Part shown: positions 41,280 through 45,973 of the stretch, piece by piece
Position numbering within the stretch: position 1 is the stretch's first letter
Layout of the letters: the number at the start of each line of letters is the position of its first letter
Assembly (NCBI RefSeq): GCF_000382245.1
Contig: NZ_KB907879.1
Coordinates: 1-64,000 of the forward strand
Length of the DNA: 64,000 nucleotides
Direction of reading: 5' to 3'
Source: Kushneria aurantia DSM 21353
GTDB taxonomy: Bacteria; Pseudomonadota; Gammaproteobacteria; Pseudomonadales; Halomonadaceae
The notes under the pieces: generated by a model
Seen by the model: only the letters and a program-made list of their open reading frames with translations
Told to the model about the DNA's origin: nothing
Databases searched by the model: none
Made by a program: the position numbers and the translations under genes

Positions 41280-42191
41280 ATGATCCGTCAAAGAACACTA
41301 CAGAACACGATCCGTGCTACCGGCGTGGGTCTGCACTCGGGAAAGAAGGTGTATCTGACCCTGCGTCCGGCGTCGGCCAACAGCGGCATCACCTTCGTGC
41401 GTACCGATCTCGAACCGGCCGTGAGCATTCCGGCACATCCCGAAAACGTTCACTTCACCACCATGTGCACCGCCGTGGCCGTCGATGGCTATCGCGTGGC
41501 GACCGTCGAGCATCTGATGTCGGCCTTTGCCGGTCTCGGTATCGACAACGCCATTGTCGAGCTCAGTGAGCCTGAAGTGCCCATCATGGACGGTAGTGCC
41601 GGCCCTTTCGTATTCCTTATCCAGTCGGCCGGTATCGTCGAGCAGGAAGTGGCCAAGAAGTTTATCCGCATCCGCCGCGAAGTGACTGTCACCGACGGTG
41701 ACAAATACGCTACTTTTCTGCCCCATAACGGCTTCAAGGTCAGCTTCGCGATCGACTTTGACCACCCGGTGTTTGCCAGTCAAAAGCAGACGACCAGCGT
41801 CGATTTCTCGACCACCTCCTTTGTCAAGGAGGTCAGTCGCGCGCGTACCTTCGGTTTTATGCGCGATATCGAGTTTCTGCGTTCGCAGGATCTGGCTCTC
41901 GGCGGCAGTCTCGATAACGCTATCGTGGTGGATGAATACCGCATTCTCAATGAAGACGGCCTGCGTTACGAAGACGAATTCGTGCGCCACAAGGTGCTCG
42001 ACGCCATCGGTGATCTCTACCAGTTGGGGCACAGCCTGATCGGCGAATTCCGCGGCTACAAATCGGGGCACGGTCTCAACAATCAGCTGGTTCGCGCGTT
42101 GCTCAAGCAGCAGGACGCATGGGAAATCGTGACCTTCGAGGATCGTGATACCTCGCCGATCTCCTATTCCGAGCCCGCCATGGCGATGTAG
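41280..42191 (+). CDS. lpxC: UDP-3-O-acyl-GlcNAc deacetylase LpxC
   Basis: Zinc amidase for the first committed step of lipid A synthesis. 303 aa: [23 protein letters not shown], the zinc histidine in [18 protein letters not shown], and [20 protein letters not shown] followed by [17 protein letters not shown], which carry the remaining ligands and catalytic histidine. Last gene of the dcw block, with a strong terminator after it. The C terminus lacks an obvious LA-type degron, ending SEPAMAM. Confidence 0.97.
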
Positions 42192-42230
42192 GCTATGGTG
42201 GCTGACTCATATTGACTGACCCATGCCAGC

Positions 42231-42264
42231 AAAGGGCGCCGTTCGGCGCCCTTTGTGCTTTTTT
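42231..42264 (+). terminator. Intrinsic terminator after lpxC
   Basis: Ten-base-pair stem AAAGGGCGCC / GGCGCCCTTT with a GTTC loop, followed by GTGCTTTTTT. It ends the dcw-lpxC transcripts and faces dciA. Confidence 0.9.
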
Positions 42265-42275
42265 ATGGAAACTCT

Positions 42276-42746
42276 TCAGCTTTTGTCCCGACTGTCATCG
42301 GCATGAGAGGCCAGCCGCTCCAGAGAGCGGCGCAGGCCATCGTGTTGGGTATCGCTGGCACAGTCGCGCAGGTGTGAGGCTGCTTCTTCGGGAAGGTGGC
42401 GGACTCGCGGTTGCGGTATATAGACCGGACGGATGGGGCGCACGCGAAAGTCCAGTTCGCGCACTTTTTCGAGCCCCGCTACCGACTGCAGAAGCGTCAG
42501 CAGACGGGCGCGCTCGAAGCGCAGCCAGGTCAGCCATACGGCGCGATCGGTTATCAACGTCAGTCGACCGTCGCGATAGCCGCCCACACGCAGGTGGTCG
42601 GCCAGCTCATCAGGCAGCGAGGTCTGCAGCTGGCGCTGTGCTCGCTCGATCAGCTCGGCAGTATGCACCAGCCTGGTCAGCGAGCCGCCGCGTTGGAGCA
42701 ATTGCCCGACGGGCTGGGCGCGTCTCGTTTTAGCCTTTATACTCAT
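42276..42746 (-). CDS. dciA: DUF721 protein, DciA-like DNA replication factor
   Basis: 156 aa. The N-terminal KH-like DUF721 domain (about 10-105) carries LVHTAELIERAQRQLQTSLPDELADHLRV in two parts and DGRLTLITDRAVWLTWLRFE. DciA proteins load or regulate the replicative helicase DnaB in bacteria without DnaC; the position beside secA and lpxC matches Pseudomonas. The C-terminal tail is probably disordered. Confidence 0.83.
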   Translation of the reverse strand: MSIKAKTRRAQPVGQLLQRGGSLTRLVHTAELIERAQRQLQTSLPDELADHLRVGGYRDGRLTLITDRAVWLTWLRFERARLLTLLQSVAGLEKVRELDFRVRPIRPVYIPQPRVRHLPEEAASHLRDCASDTQHDGLRRSLERLASHADDSRDKS

Positions 42747-42760
42747 GCCCCTGCTGCGCG

Positions 42761-42789
42761 TTCCATGGGCACAGTGCCCCGCAATGGAA
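42761..42789. promoter_or_regulatory. Nested dyad between dciA and the secM-like ORF
   Basis: GGGCAC-A-GTGCCC (42767-42779) nested in TTCCAT (42761-42766) and ATGGAA (42784-42789). It lies in the 83-bp divergent gap, next to a TTGACA (42822-42827) that lacks a convincing -10. It could be an operator or the start of the dciA leader RNA. Confidence 0.4.
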
Positions 42790-42829
42790 AGAGCGCCAAT
42801 CTATCACGGCCAATCCCGTTATTGACAGC

Positions 42830-43195
42830 ATGAGCACTGCTTCACGCACATTTGGACTGCCTCGTCGCCTGGTGACGCGCTGGTGGCTGGCGGGCATTCT
42901 TATCGGCTGTTTATTGCCGATAGGGATGGCCGACGGACGCGCGACGCTGAGCACGGCTCAACTGATCCGCATCTGTTTTCACTCGCCTGCCCATATTCGC
43001 GCCGAGTCGCGTCGCCGCTGTCGCCGTTCACGTCCAGGCATAAGCGCTCCGGTGCGGCAAACCCTGGCGGCACTGAAGCACGTGCTGCGGCGGCCGCTGC
43101 CGCGTCTTGCGCTTCCTGCGGTGTCGGTCGGCCACGACACCCTGTCACGTCGCGGTCCGCCAGCGCCGTGCTACGCCTGCTCAATCGCGACGTAA
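42830..43195 (+). CDS. Candidate SecM-like secretion-monitor leader peptide upstream of secA
   Basis: 121 aa, the only gene between the divergent dciA and secA. An Arg-rich n-region is followed by a signal-peptide-like hydrophobic core (WWLAGILIGCLLPIGMA, about 18-34). The middle is basic and Cys/Arg-rich. Near the C terminus is SRRGPPAPCY: R107-R108-G109-P110 matches the essential R-x-G-P core of the E. coli SecM arrest peptide, though the upstream W/I residues of SecM are not conserved. The stop lies 24 bp before the secA ATG, as in secM-secA. By hand count about two thirds of third codon positions are G or C, lower than neighbours but plausible. There is no clear Shine-Dalgarno. No wider similarity to SecM is claimed; this is a hypothesis from position and motif. 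Confidence 0.5.
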   Translation: MSTASRTFGLPRRLVTRWWLAGILIGCLLPIGMADGRATLSTAQLIRICFHSPAHIRAESRRRCRRSRPGISAPVRQTLAALKHVLRRPLPRLALPAVSVGHDTLSRRGPPAPCYACSIAT

Positions 43196-43213
43196 CACGA
43201 CGACAAAGGACCG
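43147..43213 (+). promoter_or_regulatory. Candidate stall-controlled RNA structure over the secA ribosome site
   Basis: CGGTCC (43153-43158), inside the codons for R-G-P of the SecM-like ORF, is the exact complement of GGACCG (43208-43213), which includes the secA Shine-Dalgarno (AAAGGA, 43205-43210). A competing eight-bp stem joins ACGTCGCG (43147-43154) to CGCGACGT (43186-43193). A ribosome paused at RGPP would cover the upstream strand of both helices and could free the secA site, as in the E. coli secM mechanism. Confidence 0.45.
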
Positions 43214-43219
43214 AAAACG

Positions 43220-45973
<2,754 letters not shown>

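Follow-up and report, generated by a model that had tools for sequence, protein, structure and literature searches.

In Kushneria aurantia DSM 21353, a small open reading frame stands directly ahead of secA, and the question raised by this locus is whether its product monitors protein export and thereby controls SecA. The window analysed is a stretch of 64,000 nucleotides of contig NZ_KB907879.1. A preliminary description, made from these letters, saw in the frame a SecM-like arrest peptide with an R-x-G-P core whose codons are complementary to the secA Shine–Dalgarno sequence. Its coordinates were all found correct on rechecking. Comparison across the Halomonadaceae supports the peptide, gives it a different arrest core, and changes the picture of the RNA.

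The reading frame ahead of secA and its distribution

The genes relevant here follow in the order lpxC, dciA (on the minus strand), a 121-residue ORF and secA; a gene which we take to be ftsZ also lies in the window.

42830..43195, + strand: candidate arrest-peptide ORF, 121 aa, a uORF of secA
43205..43213, + strand: secA Shine–Dalgarno sequence AAAGGA with a CCG extension
43220..45973, + strand: secA, 917 aa, with Pfam SecA domains

The stop codon of the ORF falls 24 nt ahead of the secA start. A strong terminator-like hairpin at 42229-42256, between lpxC and dciA, would part secA transcription from lpxC, and because dciA is divergent the ORF and secA probably form a transcription unit of their own; no sigma-70-like promoter was found within 42150-43260. 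Two reservations of the preliminary description are upheld: the ORF has no evident Shine–Dalgarno sequence in this genome, and its GC3 is 0.66 against 0.82 for secA. At family cut-offs the protein has no match in Pfam or NCBIfam, a PDB profile search gave no hits, and Rfam returned only a sub-threshold isrG match.

The ORF is a real and conserved coding gene, far beyond chance. A search with an alignment of 29 proteins, A1, found relatives in 257 of 275 Halomonadaceae genomes (the window's own included) and in 20 of 24 genera, and secA, recognised by the SecA Walker A motif, lay downstream on the same strand in all 106 loci checked. In all pairwise comparisons of six Kushneria ORFs of equal length taken together, the 829 nucleotide differences fall on codon positions 1, 2 and 3 as 176, 94 and 559, and the 682 codon differences comprise 489 synonymous and 193 non-synonymous changes, biases which indicate purifying selection on the protein. 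The absence of a conserved frame or motif from close relatives had been named as the outcome that would count against an arrest peptide; both the ORF and an RGPP or RAPP motif are conserved, which favours one.

The ORF is missing from genera g3, g5, g22 and g24. In g3, g5 and g24 secA is preceded by a gene whose product is mostly 309 aa long, and the one representative tested from each of these three genera is a Peptidase_M23 by Pfam; the single g22 genome has no ORF above the listing threshold of 50-55 codons ahead of secA. The Halomonadaceae belong to the Pseudomonadales in GTDB release 202 and to the Oceanospirillales in the NCBI taxonomy. Amongst 391 genomes drawn from the order, of which the non-matching ones were listed only in part, 23 matched A1, namely 22 Halomonadaceae and one other genome, whose marginal match spans 46 positions and contains two stops. 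Many order relatives beyond the family carry before secA a gene resembling the M23 gene in size and look, or the end of lpxC. No plausible RAPP-like uORF was seen before secA in 61 order loci outside the family, with ORFs listed only above 50-55 codons and signal-like starts judged by eye; these loci comprise 25 from one set and 36 of 40 from a second, in which four had no recognised secA start and L182 holds only about 150 nt upstream. Looser motif matches outside the family were rejected: RASG, LAGG and RAGG occur inside long or M23-looking ORFs, and RAPP and RSPG in L198 and HSPG in L203 were, by eye, in no short ORF with a signal-like start. Since order relatives and four genera of the family are without the ORF, it was probably gained within the Halomonadaceae or just before.

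In the complete genome of Halomonas socia CKY01 (locus L110, from 2899) the uORF runs in frame into secA with no stop. An unstalled ribosome would there yield a fusion of signal peptide and SecA; this may be a true fusion or the result of a sequencing error. Short open frames were listed in the other genomes of its genus, g13.

Peptide architecture, predicted arrest core and proposed mechanism

42830..42934, + strand: signal-like N terminus, a basic region followed by a hydrophobic core, W18-M33 (alignment A1, by eye)
43136..43162, + strand: conserved C-terminal stretch D103-T-L-S-R-R-G-P-P111
43151..43162, + strand: arrest core RGPP
43157..43159 and 43160..43162, + strand: predicted P-site (P110) and A-site (P111) codons, by analogy with published RQH toeprints
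43142..43172, + strand: approximate footprint of the predicted stalled ribosome, about -15 to +15 with P110 in the P site

Throughout the family the hydrophobic core, mostly WWLAG[LI]L[VI]GCLLP, is followed by a divergent Arg-rich linker, a motif mostly of the form DVL[ST]RRGPP and, after PP, a variable tail that is short, 6.7 aa on average. L20, L24, C27, L28 and P30 are invariant in the core in A1, and type I cleavage is likely near A34. From the end of the core to the P-site residue there are 71-78 residues (sd 1.8, 95 distinct proteins). Short SecM homologues are given a published median of 71 for a similar spacing, by a slightly different measure. The tight spacing in Halomonadaceae is mildly unusual, since most published secA and secDF uORF peptides are reported to vary widely in length.

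The codons of the motif are CGT for R107 (43148), CGC for R108 (43151), GGT for G109 (43154), CCG for P110 (43157) and CCA for P111 (43160). R108, G109, P110 and P111 are invariant in all 29 proteins of A1, and a pattern requiring GPP is matched by 106 of 110 fetched loci, which include the window's own and duplicates: RRGPP in 90, QRGPP in 12, CRGPP in three and PRGPP in one. The four others are L031, L089 and L091, which end in RAPP, and L110, which has RGPP in its open frame. RGPP or RAPP is thus present in 110 of 110 loci, and in seven more from genera g7, g8 and g18: L117, L118 and L121 have RGPP, and the g7 loci L119, L120, L127 and L128 have RAPP (L128 is the same genome as L031). The replacement of RGPP by RAPP in three lineages represents a natural exchange of one core for another, each of them reported to arrest strongly. 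The CRGPP variants are L018, L051 (Aidingimonas halophila) and L072 (Aidingimonas lacisalsi).

This variation moves the register of the core. It had been read as R107-x-G109-P110, reproducing the R-x-G-P of SecM; of 106 loci, however, 16 have Q, C or P instead of R107, and where the motif is RAPP the R-x-G-P is missing from this position. The apparent R107-x-G-P is a by-product of a common extra Arg. To judge from its sequence, the core is R-[GA]-P-P, based on R108 and of the RAPP-like (RQH) class, not the SecM type. Thus, of the earlier idea of a divergent secretion monitor with an RRGPP motif, the conserved arrest-peptide ORF is retained and the fixed first Arg is not. The register decides which mutants are worth making, R108A rather than R107A.

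Of the features by which the RQH class is recognised, three are found here: a small, functionally unannotated uORF of secA, over 30 residues separating the signal-like core from the arrest site, and a C-terminal (R/Q/H)-(A/G/D)-(P/G/S)-(P/G) motif. The class was defined by such uORFs, and those lying ahead of secA in 'a subset of Pseudomonadales' were named uA_RQH_Pseudomonadales (Fujiwara et al. 2024, PMC10987492). The same article reports translation arrest by a member with R109GPP, at fAP > 0.9, in PURE systems of both E. coli and B. subtilis, and toeprints of RQH peptides in which the P site holds the third residue of the motif. A 2025 EMBO J article (PMC12992588) describes RGPP as generally the most robust arrest sequence amongst the cores it compares. 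The peptide described here shares with uA_RQH_Pseudomonadales its place as a secA uORF, a small protein with a signal or signal-like N terminus and the C-terminal RGPP, with the motif Arg at 109 there and at 108 here (and at 109 in six of 106 Halomonadaceae loci, by the start choice made in this work). Perhaps nothing distinguishes the two as far as the published account goes. The absence of a plausible RAPP-like uORF from the 61 order loci outside the family suggests that the published group is probably the Halomonadaceae one; the string 'Halomona' is absent from the main text of PMC10987492, in which the species list sits in the supplements. Amongst other known peptides, ApdA and ApdP, RAPP peptides of Actinobacteria and Alphaproteobacteria, share, as described in print, the RAPP/RGPP core and a third residue in the P site, although apdP is described as preceding secDF. 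As published, uDF_RQH_Enterobacterales has an R125GPP arrest that induces its downstream gene, which however is secDF2 and not secA.

In all likelihood, then, the product of the ORF is an arrest peptide of the RAPP-like (RQH) class which monitors secretion and probably controls SecA. The conserved ORF, signal-like core, spacing, motif and position are seen directly. By analogy with published assays of other RGPP peptides the ORF very probably stalls ribosomes, and release of the stall by export and the control of SecA are likewise probable. The signal sequence would direct the nascent chain to SecYEG and SecA, and RGPP near the C-terminal end would stall the ribosome when P110 occupies the P site and P111 the A site. 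Active export would exert a pull on the chain and release the stall. When export is slow the stall would persist, the ribosome would occupy mRNA otherwise folded against the secA leader, and SecA synthesis would rise.

Three other explanations bear on the same features. The peptide may stall and yet sense something other than SecA-dependent export, such as signal-peptide processing, with secA as one output. All 29 proteins of A1 have Cys27 (42908-42910), and its L-[VIF]-[GST]-C context resembles a lipobox. The uncharged stretch before it, however, is short, only nine residues (W18-G26), and hydrophobic residues carry on beyond it. A lipoprotein signal was judged unlikely. As secA also lies downstream in every one of the 106 loci checked, a sensor of this other kind is quite improbable.

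A conserved short leader ORF might instead act mainly through translational coupling, with stalling incidental, as a ribosome terminating 24 nt before the secA start would reach the Shine–Dalgarno sequence. Simple coupling needs neither RGPP, signal core nor fixed spacing, and it is these that are constant, whereas the gap from stop codon to assigned secA start ranges from 15 to 148 nt over 102 loci. Coupling as the main activity is very unlikely.

Descent from SecM, with position kept and sequence drifted, would account for the shared place (lpxC ... secA), the signal-like N terminus, the same presumed output and a C-terminal core containing R and P, yet it is the least credible explanation: PF06558 does not match the protein even when E values up to 10 are admitted, an hhalign comparison between A1 and E. 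coli SecM yields a Prob of 0.1 of 100 (one side a single-sequence profile), BLASTP gives E 11, and the absence of the ORF from order relatives outside the family and from four genera within it fits an independent origin. The remark in the preliminary description that the rest of the protein does not look like SecM is thereby borne out. PF06558 gave no match in 229 genomes of the class, with E. coli found as control; the draw seemingly holds few or no close relatives of E. coli and mainly shows that SecM is absent near the Halomonadaceae. The published SecM arrest sequence is FxxxxWIxxxxGIRAGP (Sakiyama et al. 2021, PMC7897499). Aligned on R108, its F, W, I, G and I positions are occupied here by L95, V100, G101, S106 and R107. 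A full-text literature search for SecM together with Halomonas gave no on-topic match, judging by title. The likeness to E. coli SecM thus lies in the place before secA, the signal sequence, the export-sensing logic and a stall predicted to open the secA start, and not in sequence.

RNA structure at the secA start

The RAPP-like peptide considered here would act through the mRNA, and the preliminary description had proposed a particular pairing.

43153..43158, + strand: CGGTCC in the arrest codons, paired with 43208-43213 in the minimum free energy (MFE) fold of this genome
43163..43175, + strand: 5' arm of a genus-conserved hairpin, GCGCCGTGCTACG
43191..43202, + strand: 3' arm of the same hairpin, CGTAACACGACG, with two pairs changed on both sides

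GGACCG at 43208-43213 is indeed the exact complement of CGGTCC, and in the MFE fold the CGGUCC/GGACCG helix encloses a hairpin. Such a helix can arise by chance, as had been cautioned: when the RGPP codons were redrawn synonymously 60 times, 17% of the draws paired equally well (p ~0.17). In an alignment with seven congeners it is not kept, two columns being missing and a third mismatched in five of the seven, which rules it out as a conserved element of the genus; in L008, one of the seven, the arrest-codon and Shine–Dalgarno regions still pair, more weakly (probability 0.67). The competing eight-bp stem, ACGTCGCG with CGCGACGT, is present at 43147-43154/43186-43193 in the window and absent in congeners, the alignment being judged by eye.

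Covariation, proposed as a check on the arrest-codon helix, is found in a different structure. The enclosed hairpin, 43163-43175/43191-43202, is common to all eight aligned species, with 96.6% of cells paired and two compensatory pairs that rest on one divergent sequence against seven close ones. For this hairpin and the arrest-codon helix jointly, 14 of 500 shuffles reach as good a result. Outside that alignment, Kushneria sinocarnis (L011) and its relative L010 have a different hairpin at the same place. A stalled ribosome is predicted to cover the 5' arm of the genus-conserved hairpin.

A broader test compared the cost of opening the secA Shine–Dalgarno sequence and start, in the free RNA and with the stalled footprint removed, in 91 distinct leaders out of the 106 loci, leaving out duplicates and loci with no secA start or one too far away. 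L018, L024, L051 and L072 had no secA start by the first pattern; SecA was found downstream, and their leaders are not amongst those folded. The 91 include L046 and L055, whose secA starts are misassigned and which the cluster and swapped-partner tests leave out. Leaders were grouped by protein similarity, a rough guard against shared ancestry and not a phylogenetic model. The mean opening gain was 1.56 kcal/mol against 0.07 in shuffles, and lay above the control mean in 73 of 91 leaders and in 21 of 28 clusters (Wilcoxon p = 0.0009). The other seven clusters showed no gain. A ten-leader cluster with Vreelandella aquamarina and V. nanhaiensis gave none (0.06 kcal/mol), and the cluster of seven Kushneria congeners almost none (0.11). 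E. coli secM–secA, the control, behaved as expected (shuffle fraction 0.003-0.047). The window's leader gained 1.6-1.9 kcal/mol, equalled by 31-53% of shuffles (shuffle fraction 0.31-0.53). The prediction that stalling opens the secA start thus has statistical support family-wide and is not detectable in this genome alone.

Pairing of the Shine–Dalgarno sequence with the arrest region, taken as 30 nt before RGPP to 10 nt after, was compared with that after synonymous recoding. In 87 of the 91 leaders (a GGA core being required) the mean pairing probability with this region was 0.53 against 0.27 for synonymous recoding, and 19 of 27 clusters exceeded their synonymous-codon controls (p = 0.002). 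Over the family as a whole, pairing with the RGPP codons themselves did not exceed its control (12 of 27 clusters, p = 0.31), nor did matched arrest codons and Shine–Dalgarno sequences have an advantage over swapped partners (12 of 27 clusters; permutation fraction 0.22). Such pairing exceeded 0.5 in six of eight Chromohalobacter, four of six Onishia-group and nine of 26 main-cluster Halomonas leaders, in L015 and in the window's own leader. The Gly codon GGT was used in 43% of cases against 22% expected (by cluster 15 of 27, p = 0.04).

Meaning for the family

It is tempting to consider, as a tentative reading with rather less than an even chance of being right, that the peptide module is fixed and the RNA half turns over. 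The segment masking the secA Shine–Dalgarno sequence would then be rewired by lineage, and in some lineages (most Chromohalobacter and Onishia-group leaders, one Litchfieldella, part of the main Halomonas cluster and the window's species) the arrest codons GGN-CCN-CCN would double as an anti-Shine–Dalgarno sequence, with synonymous codons under selection. If this is true, proline-rich arrest motifs would be pre-adapted to regulation, since the codons that encode them are by nature complementary to Shine–Dalgarno sites rich in GG.

This kind of switch is already known, the peptide is of a kind already described, and its group has probably been described as well. What is added is conservation across the family and the variation of the RNA half. 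For the Sec field this is confirmation more than surprise, and the new RNA angle is a modest one. A published kind of arrest peptide is a near family-wide companion of secA in the Halomonadaceae, with a fixed architecture, and the RNA comparison leads to the testable idea that arrest peptides may recruit a downstream gene through arrest codons that double as its anti-Shine–Dalgarno sequence.
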